Source: Lachnospiraceae bacterium MD308 (GTDB taxonomy: Bacteria; Bacillota; Clostridia; Lachnospirales; Lachnospiraceae). Taken from it: a stretch of 64,000 nt of DNA. The stretch spans positions 127,570 through 191,569 of the forward strand of contig KE159796.1 in NCBI GenBank assembly GCA_000403475.2. The letters are read 5' to 3'. Below the pieces are notes generated by a model that worked only from the letters and a program-made list of their open reading frames with translations, searched no databases and was not told the origin of the DNA. Made by a program: the position numbers and the translations under genes. Of this stretch, positions 23,243 through 37,273 are shown in pieces; the first letter of the stretch is position 1, and each line of letters starts with the position of its first letter.

Positions 23243-24889
23243 ATGGGGAAAAAATCAAAAAAAGTATATATTGTCGGACATAAAAACCCGGATACAGATT
23301 CTATCTGTTCAGCAATCGCCTATGCAGAATTAAAGAAAAAAATAACCGGTGACGATTATGTGGCAAAGCGGGCAGGGCAGATCAATGAGGAAACCCACTA
23401 TGTTCTGAAAAAATTTAAAGTAGATGCGCCGGGGCTTTTGCAGAATGTAAAGCTCCAGGTAAAGGATATGGATATACATAAGATCAGCGGAGTGTCACCT
23501 AATGTTTCAATCAGGGATACATGGGAGAAGATGAAAGAGAACAATGTCAAAACGCTCCCGGTGCTGAAAGATGAGGAATTGGTAGGGGTGATTTCTACCG
23601 GCGACATTGCTACTTCCTATATGGAGGTGTACGATAACCGGGTGCTTTCTACTGCCAGGACTCAGTATAAGAATATTATAGATACGCTGGATGGAAGGTT
23701 GATTTGCGGCAACGAGCATGGCTGCTTTACGACGGGAAAAGTGACTGTGGGAGCGTCTAATGATGAGCTCATGAAGGAATTTATCGAGAAAGACGACCTT
23801 GTGATTTTAGGAAACCGTCCGGAGGCGCAGGCTTGTGCGGTGAATATTGATGCAAGCTGCATGGTTGTATGCCAGGATGCAAAAGTATCACCGGAGCTGA
23901 TAAAGAAGGCGGAGGAGCAGAGCATCGTTATCATCAGCACTCCCCATGATACTTATACGGTGGCGCGTCTGATCAATCAGAGTATACCGGTGAAGCATTT
24001 TATGAGTAAAGGGCCGCTTGTCACATTTAATATGAATGATTATGTAGATGAGATTAAGGAGAAGATGACAAAGAACAAGTTTCGTGATTTCCCGATTCTT
24101 GACCGTCATGGAAGATTCAGAGGGTTTATCTCCAGGCGCCGTTTCTTGAATGTGAAGAAAAAACAGGTCATCTTAGTGGATCACAACGAGAAATCTCAGG
24201 CGGTTGACGGTATTGAGGAAGCGGATATTGTGGAGATTATCGATCATCACAGACTTGGCAATATTGAAACGATGGGGCCGGTATTTTTCCGAAACCAGCC
24301 GGTTGGCTGCACAGCTACTATTGTCACTCAGATGTATGAGGAGGCGGGAGTGGAGATACCGGCTGCAATCGCAGGGCTGCTCTGCTGTGCGATTATTTCG
24401 GATACCCTTCTTTTCCGTTCGCCGACTTGTACGGCAGTGGACGAAAAGACAGCGAAAAAGCTTTCTAAGCTTGCAAAGATTAATATGGAAGCGATATCTA
24501 TGGAGATGTTCAATGCAGGGAGCAGCCTTAAAGGAAAGAGTGCGGAGGATATTCTCTTCCAGGACTTCAAGCAGTTTACGGTCGGTGATACTGTATTCGG
24601 GGTTGGACAGATTAATTCTATGAACAGAGAAGAACTGTCGGAGATTAGAGAGATGCTGATACCACACCTTCCAAAAGTCTTAGAAGGCGGGAAGATGGAG
24701 ATGATTTATTTTATGCTGACAGATATCTTAGATGAATCAACAGAGCTGTTATGCTGCGGCCATGGAGCAAAGGGCAGTATTATCAATGCTTTTGATTTGC
24801 CGGAGGATACGGAGCGCATCATTTTAAAAGGCGTTGTATCCAGGAAGAAGCAGTTGATCCCTACGCTGGTGGCATCACTGCAGCAGTAG
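23243..24889 (+). CDS. CBS-domain manganese-dependent inorganic pyrophosphatase
   Basis: Family II pyrophosphatase hydrolysing PPi, with a regulatory insert. The DHH part has HKNPDTDS near residues 13-20 and DHH near 331-333. Between them lie a CBS domain (~70-125), a DRTGG domain (~135-245) and a second CBS domain (~250-305). The DHHA2 domain forms the C-terminus. The 548-residue length matches CBS-PPases of Clostridia, in which AMP/ADP inhibit and diadenosine polyphosphates activate. AAGGAG precedes ATG 23243. The flavin reductase gene follows 18 nt downstream. Confidence 0.94.
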   Translation: MGKKSKKVYIVGHKNPDTDSICSAIAYAELKKKITGDDYVAKRAGQINEETHYVLKKFKVDAPGLLQNVKLQVKDMDIHKISGVSPNVSIRDTWEKMKENNVKTLPVLKDEELVGVISTGDIATSYMEVYDNRVLSTARTQYKNIIDTLDGRLICGNEHGCFTTGKVTVGASNDELMKEFIEKDDLVILGNRPEAQACAVNIDASCMVVCQDAKVSPELIKKAEEQSIVIISTPHDTYTVARLINQSIPVKHFMSKGPLVTFNMNDYVDEIKEKMTKNKFRDFPILDRHGRFRGFISRRRFLNVKKKQVILVDHNEKSQAVDGIEEADIVEIIDHHRLGNIETMGPVFFRNQPVGCTATIVTQMYEEAGVEIPAAIAGLLCCAIISDTLLFRSPTCTAVDEKTAKKLSKLAKINMEAISMEMFNAGSSLKGKSAEDILFQDFKQFTVGDTVFGVGQINSMNREELSEIREMLIPHLPKVLEGGKMEMIYFMLTDILDESTELLCCGHGAKGSIINAFDLPEDTERIILKGVVSRKKQLIPTLVASLQQ

Positions 24890-31991: not shown

Positions 31992-32519
31992 ATGGACCTG
32001 CGGACCGAGAAGACGGAAAATGCTATTAAAAATGCATTTATACAACTGCGCGCGAAAAAGGCTTTAGAGAAGGTTACTATAAAGGAGCTGTGCGAGGAGG
32101 CGCGCATCCACAAGTCTACCTTTTACTCCCACTATCAGGATATCTATGATCTGTCGCGTGCCATGGAGACAGAAGTGGTGAAGAAGATCACCGGGAGTAT
32201 TCCGGAGTACAGCTTTAACACGGGCAGCCTGGCCCAAGTGACAAGGGAGCTGACTTATGGATTCATGTCTCAGAGTTCGCTGATCAATATCTTGTTTTCC
32301 GGGAATGAGAGGAGCCATCTCGCCTACCGGATCGAGGAGAGCCTTAAGGAGATTATTTTTGAAAAATATCCTGAATACAAGGATGACCTAAGGTGGAATG
32401 TGGTGCTAAGTTACTGTATCCAGGGCGCATACTGGGCGTTTCAGGGAAGCCGGGGACAGGATGTCAATGAGGTGATCGGGATAATCAGCGAGATTGCAGA
32501 GAGGGTGTGCCGCCTTTAG
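31992..32519 (+). CDS. TetR-like transcriptional regulator
   Basis: A 175-residue regulator. The HTH is visible as NAFIQLRAKKALEKVTIKEL and CEEARIHKSTFYSHYQDIYDL. The remainder fits the TetR_C type seen in DhaS-like regulators of Firmicutes, so target and ligand are unknown. GGAAGGGGGAG precedes the ATG. It lies 138 nt upstream of the repair pair and is divergent from glgB; either could be its target. A GTCGG cluster in front of the gene suggests autoregulation. Confidence 0.85.
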   Translation: MDLRTEKTENAIKNAFIQLRAKKALEKVTIKELCEEARIHKSTFYSHYQDIYDLSRAMETEVVKKITGSIPEYSFNTGSLAQVTRELTYGFMSQSSLINILFSGNERSHLAYRIEESLKEIIFEKYPEYKDDLRWNVVLSYCIQGAYWAFQGSRGQDVNEVIGIISEIAERVCRL

Positions 32520-32569
32520 AGATGGCAGGAACCTGCTGTTTATGTTAGAATATTTAATTAAAAAAAGGG

Positions 32570-32598
32570 TTGACATAAAGAACGTTTGTTTGTATAAT
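32570..32598 (+). promoter_or_regulatory. Promoter of the radical SAM/TIGR03915 repair pair
   Basis: TTGACA (32570-32575), exactly 17 nt, TATAAT (32593-32598): a full consensus sigma-A promoter, which usually implies tight repression. Confidence 0.85.
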
Positions 32599-32620
32599 TA
32601 AATTATCGAACGAACGTTCT
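32579..32620. promoter_or_regulatory. Paired LexA-like boxes around the -10
   Basis: Box 2 (32607-32620), CGAACGAACGTTCT, fits the Gram-positive SOS box CGAAC-N4-GTTCG with one mismatch. Box 1 (32579-32592), AGAACGTTTGTTTG, fits less well. Together they also form a ~16-bp imperfect inverted repeat centred on the -10. LexA is the first candidate; the neighbouring TetR protein is the alternative. Confidence 0.6.
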
Positions 32621-32657
32621 TTTTGCGGGTTATAACGTTTGTCCATGGAGGTAGAAG

Positions 32658-33980
32658 ATGAGGATTCAGGAAGCGATGTCTATATATGATAAACTGAACA
32701 TATTAACAGATGCGGCTAAGTATGATGTGGCGTGTACTTCCAGCGGTGTTGCCAGGAAGAATGACGGAACTGGCATAGGCAACTGCAAGTTTTCTGGAAT
32801 ATGCCACAGCTTTTCTGCGGATGGAAGGTGTATTTCGCTGTTAAAGATATTGTTCACAAATGAGTGCATTTACGACTGCAAGTACTGTATCAACCGGCGG
32901 AGCAATGATGTGGTGCGCACTTCCTTTACACCGGATGAGATTTGTACGCTGATGATTGAGTTTTACCGGAGGAATTATATTGAAGGGCTGTTTTTAAGTT
33001 CCGGCGTATTGAAGAGTCCGGATTACACGATGGAGCTGATTTATGCGACTTTGTATAAGCTTAGAACAAAGTATAATTTTCAGGGATATATCCATGTGAA
33101 GGCCATTCCGGGGGCCAGCCAGGAGCTGATCCAGAGGGTAGGTTTCCTTACAGACCGTATGAGTGTTAATCTGGAGCTTCCTACAGCCGAGAGCTTAAAG
33201 CTTCTTGCGCCTCACAAGACGAGGAAGAATATTCTGGCGCCTATGCGGCTTGTGCAGACTTGCATGGCAGAGAACAAGCAGGAGATCGTAGCTTACCGCA
33301 ATTCACCCAGGTTCGTCCCGGCAGGTCAGAGCACGCAGATGATCATCGGGGCGACGCCGGAGACAGATTACCAGATTATGCAGGTTACGGAATCCCTGTA
33401 TCAGAAGTTTGAGTTAAAGAGAGTGTTTTATTCTGCATTTGTCCATGTGAATGAGGATTCTAATCTTCCGGCCAGGACGGATGAGGGGCCGCCGCTTTTG
33501 AGGGAGCACAGGCTCTATCAGGCAGATTGGCTGCTTCGATATTATCATTTTCAGGCGGATGAACTGCTGTCGGAGGAGAATCCGAATTTTAATGTGCTGT
33601 TTGACCCGAAGTGTAACTGGGCATTAAAGCATTTAGAGGAATTTCCGGTGGAAGTGAACCGGGCGGATTACAAAAAGCTGCTCCGAGTTCCGGGTATCGG
33701 TTACAAGTCTGCGGGAAGGATTGTCAGGGCGAGGCGGCTTGGGAATCTGGATTTTGCGGATCTGAAAAAGATTGGGGTAGTGTTGAAGCGCGCCCTGTAT
33801 TTTATAACCTGCAGCGGAAAGATGATGTATCCGACGAAGATAGAGGAAGATTATATTACGAGAAATCTTTTGGATACCGGGGAGAAGCTGCCGCAGGAGG
33901 TAGTGAATATGGGGTACAGGCAGTTGTCGCTGTTTGATGATGTGAGGTTTGACGCAGATAAGGTGATTAAAGCGATATGA
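32658..33980 (+). CDS. Putative DNA modification/repair radical SAM protein (TIGR03916)
   Basis: Radical SAM enzyme of 440 residues. The cluster motif C-x3-C-x2-C is C70, C74, C77 in CIYDCKYCINR. A helix-hairpin-helix element near residues 345-360 (LLRVPGIGYKSAGRIV) indicates DNA binding. The family always occurs with a TIGR03915 partner, found here overlapping by 4 nt. The reaction is unknown. GGAGG lies before the ATG, and the promoter carries LexA-like boxes, which supports a damage-response role. Confidence 0.9.
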   Translation: MRIQEAMSIYDKLNILTDAAKYDVACTSSGVARKNDGTGIGNCKFSGICHSFSADGRCISLLKILFTNECIYDCKYCINRRSNDVVRTSFTPDEICTLMIEFYRRNYIEGLFLSSGVLKSPDYTMELIYATLYKLRTKYNFQGYIHVKAIPGASQELIQRVGFLTDRMSVNLELPTAESLKLLAPHKTRKNILAPMRLVQTCMAENKQEIVAYRNSPRFVPAGQSTQMIIGATPETDYQIMQVTESLYQKFELKRVFYSAFVHVNEDSNLPARTDEGPPLLREHRLYQADWLLRYYHFQADELLSEENPNFNVLFDPKCNWALKHLEEFPVEVNRADYKKLLRVPGIGYKSAGRIVRARRLGNLDFADLKKIGVVLKRALYFITCSGKMMYPTKIEEDYITRNLLDTGEKLPQEVVNMGYRQLSLFDDVRFDADKVIKAI

Positions 33981-34759
33981 AAACAGTTTATGTATGTATG
34001 GATTCGGTGACGGGGATATTTTCTGCTGTTTACGATGCGTGGAAAGCGCAGAAGACGGAGGAAGAATGTGGGATTGCTCTGCGTGGATTTATGGAGCAGC
34101 AGTTGTTCTGTGATTATGTTGAGGTGGAAGAGACAGAGGAAAAGGCGGTTGCCGTGGAGAGCATGATACGCAAGCATATGGGGCTTTTGGCATATCATGA
34201 TATCTATCAGGCGGCATTGGCGGCAGATGCAGAAAAAGGGGACGCGATTCTCGGTACGATGCTTGCAGCGAAGAAACTAAAGGACAGCAAGAAAATTATG
34301 GAGCATTTGAGCCATCCGAAGGTTGAGAAAGTGTTTGAACTGAGCCGAAGAGTGGGCAATGAGTCTCATTTTCTAGTTGAATTTATTCGGTTCAGGGAGC
34401 TTGAAAGCGGTATTTTATATGCTCCGATCACCCCGAAGTGCCAGGTGCTCACCTGTATAGCCCCTCATTTTGCAGATCGCTTTCCTCTGGAAAACTGGAT
34501 GATCCACGATAAGACCCACTGTGCTTTTGCTGTGCATGAGGCGCGAAAAAAGTGGGTGCTTTTGCAGGAGGCTTACAGTGAGGCTCGGAAGGAGGAGTAT
34601 GAGGAGCAGTTTACGAAGATGTCGGAGAAAGAGATGGAGTACGAGACGCTCTTTAAGAGCTTCTGCAAGACAATAGCCATTAAAGAGAGGGAGAATCCTG
34701 TTTGCCAGAGAGGGCATCTTCCCCTCTGGTACCGCCCGAATATGGTGGAGTTTTCTTAA
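33977..34759 (+). CDS. TIGR03915 family putative DNA repair protein (DUF4130)
   Basis: Obligate companion of the preceding radical SAM protein (260 aa). The N-terminal part reads CMDSVTGIFSAVYDAW and the central part FVEFIRF/LVEFIRFRELESGILYAPI, matching the DUF4130 domain. In some Proteobacteria this domain is fused to a uracil-DNA glycosylase-like domain, so a base-damage role is plausible. The ATG overlaps the upstream stop, so expression is coupled. Biochemical function is not known. Confidence 0.87.
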   Translation: MKTVYVCMDSVTGIFSAVYDAWKAQKTEEECGIALRGFMEQQLFCDYVEVEETEEKAVAVESMIRKHMGLLAYHDIYQAALAADAEKGDAILGTMLAAKKLKDSKKIMEHLSHPKVEKVFELSRRVGNESHFLVEFIRFRELESGILYAPITPKCQVLTCIAPHFADRFPLENWMIHDKTHCAFAVHEARKKWVLLQEAYSEARKEEYEEQFTKMSEKEMEYETLFKSFCKTIAIKERENPVCQRGHLPLWYRPNMVEFS

Positions 34760-34811
34760 GAGGCAGGCAGCTTATCTTGCACAGGGGAGATTGAAAGGTT
34801 CTGTGTAGATG

Positions 34812-34840
34812 TTGACAGATAGTGCCGTTATCTTTATCAT
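34812..34840 (+). promoter_or_regulatory. Promoter of the helicase gene
   Basis: TTGACA (34812-34817), exactly 17 nt, TATCAT (34835-34840), 39 nt before the helicase start. No LexA-like box is seen here. Confidence 0.7.
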
Positions 34841-34879
34841 GTTTTTAAGAGCAATGAAGTTGAGAAAGATGAAGGTACG

Positions 34880-37273
34880 ATGGAGATGGAACAGCCTCTT
34901 GTAAAGATTTCTGTGCGTAATCTTGTGGAATTTATTATGCGCGGCGGGGATATAGACAATCGTATGGCAGGAGCGGATAAGGATACGATGCTTCTGGGGG
35001 GAAAGATGCACCGCAAGATACAAAAGCGTATGGGTGCGGGTTACCATGCAGAGGTAGCTCTGAAATATGAGATACAGTGCAAAGGTTTTATGCTTGTCAT
35101 AGAGGGCAGGGCAGATGGGGTTATAGAGACGCCGGATGGGATTGTGATTGATGAGATCAAGGGGATTCTTAAGGAATTAGACGCTATAAAGGAGCCGGTT
35201 CCTGTGCATCTTGCCCAGGCAAAGTGTTATGCCTTTATCTATGCAAAGCAGCATCAACAGGAGCAGATTGGCGTGCAGATGACCTATTGCAATATGGAGA
35301 CGGAGGATATCAGACGGTTTCAGTCCGTCTATGGATTTGAAGAGCTGTCAGCCTGGTTTTATGATCTCGTAGGAAGATATGAAAAGTGGGCCAGATATCA
35401 GATTCGCTGGAAAGAGAAGCGGGATATTTCTATAAAAGCGCTGGAATTTCCCTTTGGCTACCGGGAGGGACAGAGGGACTTAGTAGCTTCCGTCTACAGA
35501 ACGATTCTGCGTAAGAAGAAGCTTTTTATCCAGGCGCCGACCGGGGTGGGGAAGACGATGGCAACAGTATTTCCGACGGTTAAGGCAGTAGGGGAAGGAT
35601 TGGGAGATAAGATTTTTTACCTGACTGCCAAGACAATCACGCGGACAGTTGCCTGGCAGGCATTTGATATCTTAAAAGAACAGGCGTTGCGGATGAAGGT
35701 TCTTGTTCTGACTGCAAAGGATAAGATCTGCTTCTGCGAAAGTACGGATTGTAATCCTGACGGATGCATCTATGCAAGAGGCCACTATGACCGGGTAAAT
35801 GATGCAGTCTATGAGCTTCTTACTACATCAGATGAGATGAGCCGGGAGATTATAGAGGAACAAGCGAAAAAGTGGCAGGTGTGCCCCTATGAGATGAGTC
35901 TGGATGTTTCCAACTGGATTGATGCGGTTATCTGTGACTACAATTATGTTTTTGACCCACAAGCGCACCTTCGGAGGTTTTTCGGGGAAGGGAATCAGGG
36001 GGAGTATCTTTTTTTGATCGACGAGGCGCATAACCTGGTAGAGCGTGGGAGAGAGATGTACAGTGCCAGTATTTATAAAGAGGACTTCCTGAAGATAAAA
36101 AGACTGGTAACAGGAAGGGATGAGAAGCTTTCAAAAAGGATTGACAACTGCAACCGCAGGCTTCTTTCGATGAAACGAGAGTGTGAGGATTATCAGGTTT
36201 TGGACAGTGTGGCTAATCTGTATGTGAAGCTGATGAACCTGATTACAGAGCTGGAACGTTTTTTAGAGGAGGAAAGGAAGAGAAAAACTCCCGATGAAGA
36301 GATGAGAAAGGAAGTGCTGGATTTCTATTTTAGCATCCGCAGTTTTCTATATATCCATGATAAGCTGGATGATAATTATATCATTTATGCGCAGATGGAG
36401 GGAAGCGGGAGATTCAAAGTCCGTCTGTTCTGTGTGAATCCGTCAAAGAATCTGCAGGAGTATTTGGAAAAAGGGAACAGCACTGTGTATTTTTCGGCTA
36501 CTCTGCTCCCTATCCATTATTATAAGAAGTTGCTGAGTACGTCAAAAGATGATTATGCGGTCTATGCCGAATCTCCTTTTGATGTCAGAAAGCGTTTGCT
36601 GCTTTTGGGGACGGATGTCAGTACAAAATATACGAGGCGAGGGGAGGAAATGTACCGCAGATATGCGGAGTATCTATTAGAAACAGCGGGCGCAAGAGCA
36701 GGGAACTATATAGCTTTTTTTCCATCCTACCGATTTATGGAGGAAGTATACGAGATGTTTTTGGACATGCTGGATACTCATTTGCCAGGTGAGTCGGGGA
36801 TTTCCATTGATTATGTTATGCAGTCTCAGTATATGTCCGAGGAGGCAAGAGAGATATTTCTTGAGAATTTTGAGGAAACAAGAGAGAACAGCCTGATCGG
36901 CTTTTGCGTTATGGGAGGTATATTTTCTGAGGGGATTGATCTGGCACAGGACAGGCTGATCGGAGCGGTGATTGTAGGTACGGGGCTTCCGCAGGTATGC
37001 AGGGAGAGGGAGCTTTTGAAGGATTATTTTGATGGCCAGGGACTTAGAGGCTTTGACTACGCATACCTTTATCCGGGGATGAATAAGGTTCTGCAGTCAG
37101 CGGGAAGGGTTATCCGTACAGATGAAGACAGAGGAGTCATTTTACTTCTCGATGAAAGATTCAGAGACAGCAGGTGCAGGGAGGTGTTTCCAAGGGAGTG
37201 GAAAGATATGGGACTGTGCCAGGTGAAGAATGCGGCGGAGAGGATCAGGAATTTTTGGGAGAGTGAAAGCTGA
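34880..37273 (+). CDS. XPD/DinG-type DNA helicase with N-terminal Cas4-like nuclease domain
   Basis: A 797-residue protein combining two activities. Residues ~1-170 look like a PD-(D/E)XK nuclease: GRADGV, then IDEIKG (E-x-K) and the RecB/Cas4-type Q-x3-Y in HLAQAKCYAF. The helicase follows: Walker A PTGVGKT near 218-225, a cysteine cluster near 283-297 and C334 fitting an XPD 4Fe-4S site, DEAH near 381-384, and the C-terminal motifs VIVGTGLP and SAGRVIRTDEDRG. It probably unwinds and trims damaged DNA. It lies directly after the repair pair with its own promoter. Confidence 0.88.
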   Translation: MEMEQPLVKISVRNLVEFIMRGGDIDNRMAGADKDTMLLGGKMHRKIQKRMGAGYHAEVALKYEIQCKGFMLVIEGRADGVIETPDGIVIDEIKGILKELDAIKEPVPVHLAQAKCYAFIYAKQHQQEQIGVQMTYCNMETEDIRRFQSVYGFEELSAWFYDLVGRYEKWARYQIRWKEKRDISIKALEFPFGYREGQRDLVASVYRTILRKKKLFIQAPTGVGKTMATVFPTVKAVGEGLGDKIFYLTAKTITRTVAWQAFDILKEQALRMKVLVLTAKDKICFCESTDCNPDGCIYARGHYDRVNDAVYELLTTSDEMSREIIEEQAKKWQVCPYEMSLDVSNWIDAVICDYNYVFDPQAHLRRFFGEGNQGEYLFLIDEAHNLVERGREMYSASIYKEDFLKIKRLVTGRDEKLSKRIDNCNRRLLSMKRECEDYQVLDSVANLYVKLMNLITELERFLEEERKRKTPDEEMRKEVLDFYFSIRSFLYIHDKLDDNYIIYAQMEGSGRFKVRLFCVNPSKNLQEYLEKGNSTVYFSATLLPIHYYKKLLSTSKDDYAVYAESPFDVRKRLLLLGTDVSTKYTRRGEEMYRRYAEYLLETAGARAGNYIAFFPSYRFMEEVYEMFLDMLDTHLPGESGISIDYVMQSQYMSEEAREIFLENFEETRENSLIGFCVMGGIFSEGIDLAQDRLIGAVIVGTGLPQVCRERELLKDYFDGQGLRGFDYAYLYPGMNKVLQSAGRVIRTDEDRGVILLLDERFRDSRCREVFPREWKDMGLCQVKNAAERIRNFWESES

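Follow-up and report, generated by a model that had tools for sequence, protein, structure and literature searches.

A radical SAM/DUF4130 gene pair of Lachnospiraceae bacterium MD308 with LexA-type operators and a sliding-clamp peptide: a candidate SOS repair operon

Organization of the locus

We analyzed a 64,000-nucleotide stretch of Lachnospiraceae bacterium MD308 (GCA_000403475.2, contig KE159796.1, positions 127,570 to 191,569; hereafter the window), part of a genome of 4.46 Mb in 4 contigs. It carries the gene of a DNA-binding radical S-adenosylmethionine (SAM) enzyme, the gene of its DUF4130 partner and that of a nuclease-helicase, which an earlier note on this DNA had taken together as one undescribed DNA-repair system. 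Our results strengthen the repair idea for the radical SAM/DUF4130 pair and weaken it for the trio: LexA-type boxes at the promoter of the pair and a sliding-clamp peptide at the end of the radical SAM protein are conserved across orthologues, and the helicase gene is found beside the pair in part of one family.

The three genes are indeed adjacent and co-oriented, at 32658-37273 on the forward strand. The radical SAM gene (gene 1, TIGR03916; 32658-33980, +) encodes 440 residues and overlaps by 4 bp the DUF4130/TIGR03915 gene (gene 2; 33977-34759, +), which encodes 260 residues; after a gap of 120 bp, there follows a gene for an EndoDinG-type helicase of 797 residues (gene 3; 34880-37273, +). 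The promoter of the radical SAM operon, TTGACA-17 bp-TATAAT (32570-32598, +), agrees with the sigma-70 consensus at 12/12 positions. Two LexA-type boxes lie over it: box 1, GAACGTTTGTTT (32580-32591, +), with 1 mismatch to GAACN4GTTC, falls within the spacer between the -35 and -10 elements, and box 2, GAACGAACGTTC (32608-32619, +), which is exact, stands directly 3' of the -10 element. The span originally assigned to the system, 31992-37273, includes the trio, but its start is that of a TetR-like regulator gene that is not a member of the trio and is described below.

LexA-type operators upstream of the pair

For comparison, loci were collected in three sets. The family sample covers 120 genomes (119 genera) of the window's family, of which 68 have the radical SAM gene (match in 67/119 genera); the loci of 60 of these 68 genomes were fetched and 8 were omitted. 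As the best 80 among 584 relatives, the named loci are biased to close ones, and they partly overlap the family sample; many are labelled Lachnospiraceae or with genera such as Mediterraneibacter, Roseburia and Blautia, and a few bear other labels. The phylum sample covers 299 genomes, 65 of which pass the TIGR03916 cut-off, and supplied 40 loci from other families of the phylum. A box was counted when GAACN4GTTC was matched with at most 1 mismatch within 250 bp upstream. Operator counts omit L094 (no N-terminus), L147, L148, L257 and L260 (no start) and one named locus with insufficient upstream sequence. Shuffles were mononucleotide for the set of 60 promoters and dinucleotide-keeping for the named and phylum sets, with a plain shuffle when the walk failed.

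GAACN4GTTC is the SOS box of Bacillus subtilis, and lexA, recA and uvrB of Clostridioides difficile carry GAAC....GTTT/GTTC boxes (PMC4234289). Since 0.58 exact boxes would be expected in the window by chance, the sole one found there, GAACGAACGTTC, proves nothing by itself, and the weight rests on conservation across orthologues. A box is present at 58/60 promoters of the window and 59 family loci (shuffles: mean 4.1, maximum 11), at 75/77 named loci (mean 5.8, maximum 12) and at 26/38 loci of the phylum set (mean 2.0, maximum 6). As a control, 100/1177 other open reading frames (ORFs) in the same loci have such a box upstream, these ORFs being mechanical frames rather than curated genes, some of which face the same promoter; 2 of the 24 exact hits in the control regions belong to lexA genes. 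In the source genome itself, recA has an exact box upstream, and lexA is present with one one-mismatch and one two-mismatch site at its promoter. From these sequence comparisons, the radical SAM/DUF4130 operon is very probably controlled by LexA, which would bind the two boxes in the cell.

Part of this regulation has precedents. The COG1573-COG4277 operon, the form linked to uracil-DNA glycosylase (UDG), lies under LexA motifs in Bacteroidetes according to PMC8565304, which cites Verrucomicrobia and Alphaproteobacteria for LexA control of the same form. Novelty is further limited by a core Gram-positive SOS regulon that includes "a radical SAM protein" (PMC7739468) and by a Streptomyces LexA regulon with the radical SAM protein vnz_31145 (PMC9380542); neither source, in the part available, distinguishes the SplB from the TIGR03916 family. 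The word "radical" does not occur in the available text of the C. difficile LexA paper (PMC4234289), and our literature search turned up no report on the pair in Clostridia. The present counts extend LexA-type boxes to the UDG-less form, in genomes from across the phylum of the window. The description of the system as undescribed thus holds in part: NCBIfam curates the pair as putative DNA repair proteins, DUF4130 was named in 2013 (Biol Direct; PMC3765255), and LexA regulation of the UDG-linked form is reported for Bacteroidetes. That no mechanism is known for the pair agrees with our search, which found none. The pair is known yet uncharacterized, and its own anatomy indicates when and where it acts.

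A sliding-clamp peptide in the radical SAM protein

The C-terminal tail of the radical SAM protein reads ...YRQLSLFDD..., in which QLSLF (residues 422-426; codons at 33921-33935, +) is a canonical sliding-clamp binding motif. In the structure model, residues 408-440 have a predicted local distance difference test (pLDDT) score below 50 and are disordered. QL[S/D]LF is the bacterial consensus for such peptides, and the QLSLF of B. subtilis PolC binds the clamp with a measured dissociation constant (KD) of 3.8 uM (PMC12309361).

The strict clamp pattern occurs in 165/187 radical SAM tails, against 1.3 expected from tail shuffles (57/60 in the family sample, 76/80 named, 27/40 in the phylum set and 5/7 in the group of window and plasmid loci). 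The 22 tails that miss it include L095, which is cut by a contig end, and several near variants (QVSLF, QLALF, QLSLW, QLSLGF). When the last 60 residues of 1771 other frames in the same loci were read as a control, 7 had the strict pattern and 2 the canonical form, one of them in a PolC and the other in a Rep/PcrA-like helicase. The canonical form was found in 0/177 DUF4130 frames and 0/67 helicase frames, and the strict pattern near the end of 3/177 DUF4130 frames.

Judging by this conservation, we expect with good confidence that the radical SAM protein binds the sliding clamp DnaN in the cell. No paper tying the TIGR03916 family to the sliding clamp was found in a search judged by titles and abstracts. 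A damage-induced client of the clamp is known in ImuB, which carries QLPLWG (PMC10421592) and so combines a damage response with a clamp peptide as our protein appears to do; ImuB is a polymerase relative, whereas the window protein is a radical SAM enzyme. Together, the conserved operators and the conserved clamp peptide support membership of the pair in the DNA-damage response, as the repair claim had it, and a role of the pair in damage repair or tolerance is quite likely. The pair is common, and operators that indicate timing and a peptide that indicates site make it directly testable biology.

The radical SAM protein and its DUF4130 partner

Gene 1 scores 699.9 bits against TIGR03916 (cut-off 343.5) and matches Pfam Radical_SAM and HHH_3, each barely above its cut-off, with the helix-hairpin-helix at about residues 330-369; the identification as a radical SAM enzyme with a DNA-binding domain is confirmed. 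Conservation was read in a set of 47 sequences comprising the window, 40 sequences from the phylum outside the window's family and 6 named records (Bacteroidota, Proteobacteria and one Oscillospiraceae). The CxxxCxxC motif at 70-77 (C70, C74, C77) is kept in 47/47, and so are three extra cysteines, Cys26, Cys49 and Cys58, together with His50. This triad may form a second iron-sulfur (Fe-S) or metal site, for which it is a candidate on the basis of conservation. A four-cysteine version that included Cys385 was considered and reduced to the triad, since Cys385 is invariant in the family alignments but present in 34/47 sequences overall. Among the 50 rows listed, the solved folds nearest to the model are those of HydE, lipoyl synthase and biotin synthase, at Z about 15-16 over roughly 220 residues; all are radical SAM enzymes and say little about the substrate.

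Two variants of the protein were seen in passing. An insertion at about residue 207-217, assigned by hand, occurs in 22/60 family loci (L096-L117). The proteins of L262-L267 are more distant and shorter TIGR03916 members, with about 378-430 bits against 586-700 in the main group; they keep the cysteine triad, and their tail peptides are more varied.

The two genes stand together at nearly all loci compared. On the strand of the radical SAM gene, 177/180 loci also carry a DUF4130 partner, which is no more than 300 bp away in 175; of the 3 others, L095 is truncated by its contig end within the radical SAM gene, and G208 and G169 encode DUF4130 elsewhere in the genome. The latter two are complete genomes of one family (loci L237 and L246, respectively), in which the radical SAM promoters also have no box within one mismatch.

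Gene 2 scores 230.3 bits against TIGR03915 (cut-off 112.25) and 160.2 against DUF4130 (cut-off 27), and its structure model is confident (pLDDT 94.2). Proteins of the DHH family make up most of the leading fold matches. The best solved one is 8a8k (Z 9.4, 201 residues), and a DHH-type alignment covers residues 1-218; others are entries for RecJ, Cdc45 and the replisome, NrnA, family II pyrophosphatases and the C-Ala domain of alanyl-tRNA synthetase. In a viral structure library, the matches include RecJ-, NrnB- and DHH-named proteins. Some of these rows we take to be members of the DHH or DHHA1 families. The likeness to DHH/DHHA1 proteins such as RecJ, NrnA and Cdc45 lies in the predicted fold; DUF4130 differs from them in lacking a conserved set of Asp and His residues in its N-terminal half and any significant profile similarity. 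Within residues 1-126, no Asp or His is invariant or nearly so in 74 sequences, and the metal ligands of DHH enzymes are thus not conserved. We consider a DHH/RecJ/Cdc45-like fold, and kinship with these proteins, reasonably probable from the model, and DUF4130 is most likely a DNA-holding subunit.

UdgX fusions among distant relatives

When plasmid records were searched with tblastn, 158 had a match, including Bacteroidota and Proteobacteria, some of the records being chromosome-sized. Caulobacter vibrioides gave a match in control searches with DUF4130 and TIGR03916. In two alphaproteobacterial loci, those of Azospirillum and Sulfitobacter, the DUF4130 partner is fused to UdgX with the motifs GEQPG, KRRLH and HPS, which bears out the remark that this partner is elsewhere joined to a uracil-DNA glycosylase-like domain. 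The motifs resemble the UdgX signature in PMC10359453, which describes the covalent capture of uracil sites by UdgX and treats its role as open. The partners of Spirosoma and Acinetobacter are unfused, as are those of Parabacteroides and Pusillibacter by annotation, and GExPG occurs in 0/177 partner frames of the family, named and phylum loci.

These relatives belong to the TIGR03916/TIGR03915/TIGR03914 set, which we take to include COG4277. Both window genes resemble the set in passing the curated cut-offs and in being adjacent; the window pair differs from it in having no UdgX. A clamp peptide, a cysteine triad and a DHH-like fold were not found described for the TIGR03916/TIGR03915 set in our literature search.

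One could suppose from the fusions that the pair serves a uracil/abasic pathway, processing uracil-derived sites or removing UdgX-DNA crosslinks, with the fused UdgX as the sensor. The unfused partners and the lack of GExPG just described speak against this. UDG-superfamily genes, present in 117/120 family genomes, leave no contrast in which UDG content could correlate with the pair, and no link between the two is visible. We regard this pathway as an unlikely description of the pair.

The helicase as a neighbor

Gene 3 matches DEAD_2 and Helicase_C_2 above their cut-offs and PDDEXK_1 just under (20.9 against 22 bits), and its residues 8-775 match PDB entry 9kqh ("DNA 5'-3' helicase"; E 3e-151). 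Cysteines 284, 291, 296 and 335 are present in 25/25 aligned sequences, the window included, and H44, E58, D79, E92 and K94 in at least 95% of these 25, which we read as residues of the nuclease motif. Gene 3 is thus of the type called EndoDinG in a 2025 review, that is, DinG-like proteins with an N-terminal PD-(D/E)XK domain (PMC11981726), and is predicted to act as a nuclease and as an Fe-S XPD/DinG helicase, as had been recognized; it shares with EndoDinG the domain layout, the residues of the nuclease center and the four Fe-S cysteines. What sets it apart is its position next to the radical SAM pair, which is peculiar to one family.

Could the three genes form one machine, with the pair to mark or process a lesion and the nuclease-helicase to unwind and excise it? 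Several counts speak for this. After the DUF4130 partner, the helicase is the commonest conserved neighbor (64 loci). It is co-oriented within 2 kb in 23 of 56 usable loci of the family sample, where 2 further loci have it at 2-6 kb and another has it in reverse orientation, and in 36 of 71 usable named loci, with 5 more at 2-6 kb. The helicase occurs in 105/120 family genomes, the radical SAM gene in 68/120 and both in 64, which amounts to 64/68 pair-positive against 41/52 pair-negative genomes (Fisher p 0.023). Co-transcription with the pair is likely where the gap between the DUF4130 and helicase genes is below 70 bp, as in 6/25 linked loci of the sample (gaps and radical SAM insertions were called in the 60 family loci only, the insertions by hand). 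In the window, the gap of 120 bp holds a promoter-like site, TTGACA-17-TATCAT (34812-34840, +; 11/12), with no exact LexA-type box nearby; such sites numbered 13 in the scanned stretch, against 8.2 expected.

The neighbor count does not hold in the rest of the phylum, where the helicase is beside the pair in 0/39 usable loci, and 41 family genomes have it without the pair. Its upstream regions carry a LexA-type box in 5/67 cases, none of them exact. Linkage tracks the insertion near residue 210 of the radical SAM protein (25/38 loci without it, against 1/22 with it, that one in the opposite direction), which fits an inherited gene order. A small HPr-like gene is a common companion upstream of the helicase: in 20 loci that were read, it precedes the helicase in 11, namely in 5/14 without the pair and in 6/6 with the pair elsewhere; the HPr-like protein scores 18.7 bits, below the Pfam PTS-HPr cut-off of 23. 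A large conserved gene, PurL by eye, lies 3' of the helicase in 5/20. Elsewhere in the phylum, a few single neighbors were seen as possible operon partners, and by eye none of them recurred. On this evidence, the claim that the helicase is the third part of one system fails outside the family, and a three-gene machine is improbable. The helicase probably represents a gene order inherited within part of one family, perhaps useful, rather than a component that defines the unit.

A member of the HPr-like cluster is also found at 31 pair loci (for example, L171:9308-9526), nearly always at a distance that would place it between the pair and the helicase.

Other explanations

A photolyase of the SplB kind, reversing ultraviolet (UV) dimers, would account for a radical SAM domain and a DNA-binding domain in one protein, and DUF4130 has been associated with SplB-like radical SAM photolyases (PMC3765255). 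The spore photoproduct lyase SplB is likewise a radical SAM repair enzyme tied elsewhere to SOS (PMC3765255, PMC8565304). It belongs to another family model, and the window system is distinguished by its helix-hairpin-helix, DUF4130 partner and clamp peptide and by a list of matching folds headed by HydE, LipA and BioB. SplB is absent from the 50 fold rows listed, which excludes nothing, and its family is absent from the family-model matches of gene 1, for which no SplB-specific model was run. Many relatives come from gut or fecal samples by their record titles, so that light would be an unlikely need. Taken together, we think a photolyase a poor candidate.

A DNA-modification or anti-phage system is also suggested by the NCBI name, which reads "modification/repair", and by the match of the helicase to the PADLOC type IV DinG model (395.9 bits; ORFs were viewed around 24-46 kb, and csf genes were not searched). 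Neither the radical SAM protein nor DUF4130 was matched by PADLOC, no relative was found in viral contigs, and SOS operators with a clamp peptide fit repair better, all of which makes this explanation very unlikely.

The TetR-like regulator gene (31992-32519, +; 175 residues) has a TetR_N match of 21.2 bits, below the cut-off of 24, and its homologues cluster at just 5 of the compared pair loci. As few pair loci have a homologue and the LexA-type boxes are kept in loci without one, the gene is probably not part of the system. That the boxes, which form an inverted repeat beside it, are operators of this regulator rather than of LexA is scarcely credible, given their retention at such orthologues and the boxes at recA and lexA of the same genome.

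Proposed mechanism

We favor, by a small measure, an account in which the radical SAM and DUF4130 genes form a two-gene SOS operon for a clamp-tethered radical enzyme that acts on lesions at replication forks. In this scheme, LexA would repress the operon via the two boxes over its promoter, and DNA damage would derepress it. The radical SAM protein could then reach the fork through DnaN binding by its C-terminal QLSLF, while its helix-hairpin-helix domain would grip DNA. DUF4130 has a predicted DHH-like fold that may have lost its catalytic metal site (compare Cdc45); its most likely task is to hold single-stranded DNA or to present the damaged nucleotide. At the radical SAM center, the 5'-deoxyadenosyl radical would repair or convert the lesion, and we lean towards such direct radical chemistry on DNA. 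The putative second metal or Fe-S site at Cys26/Cys49/Cys58 would likely serve substrate binding or electron transfer. Because the partner is fused to UdgX in the two alphaproteobacterial loci, lesions related to uracil or abasic sites are the leading candidates for the substrate. The EndoDinG helicase would be a neighbor in part of one family, probably co-transcribed with the pair in some members and not a defining part.

Several observations weigh against this account. Twelve of the 38 phylum promoters have no box within one mismatch, and the whole genome holds 42 exact box sites against 87 for the backward pattern, that is, no enrichment. The structure model of the radical SAM protein is weak (pLDDT 79.1), and its scores fall under 50 around the cysteines, at residues 23-35 and 44-58. 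Just 2/998 chains reach Z 8 against the DUF4130 model, and a comparison of the DUF4130 profile with 19 NrnA proteins gave probabilities of 0.1-1.3%; since this is not significant, the DHH kinship is a matter of fold alone. Finally, the window protein has no UdgX domain, DUF4130 being its sole match above cut-off.

A bolder form of the clamp-tethered account, which we offer tentatively and hold to be doubtful as yet, is fork-coupled direct repair. Here, an SOS-induced radical SAM enzyme carrying two Fe-S clusters would ride the clamp as a translesion polymerase does and restore or convert the blocking nucleotide; the single-stranded template would be held by the degenerate DHH-fold partner, and replication could resume without error-prone bypass. 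If true, the SOS response would gain a new branch, in which a radical enzyme repairs DNA at the fork, next to excision, recombination and translesion synthesis.

Further observations

The radical SAM gene has lexA about 3 kb away in 2/40 phylum loci (L232:2211-2876 and L264:2376-3023), too small a number to support a conclusion. Elsewhere in the window, the ORF at 23243-24889 encodes a protein whose start resembles, by eye, a family II inorganic pyrophosphatase of the DHH superfamily, followed by extra domains.

The source genome has one complete uvrB (C1:195621-197573) and 5' fragments of uvrB at three places, C1:259367-259633, C1:304645-305019 and C1:306428-306670 (loci L003, L005 and L006). 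An exact LexA-type box precedes the fragments of L005 and L006, and at L003 and L005 there are genes for phage-type integrases nearby. The pattern suggests that mobile elements have integrated repeatedly at the 5' end of uvrB.

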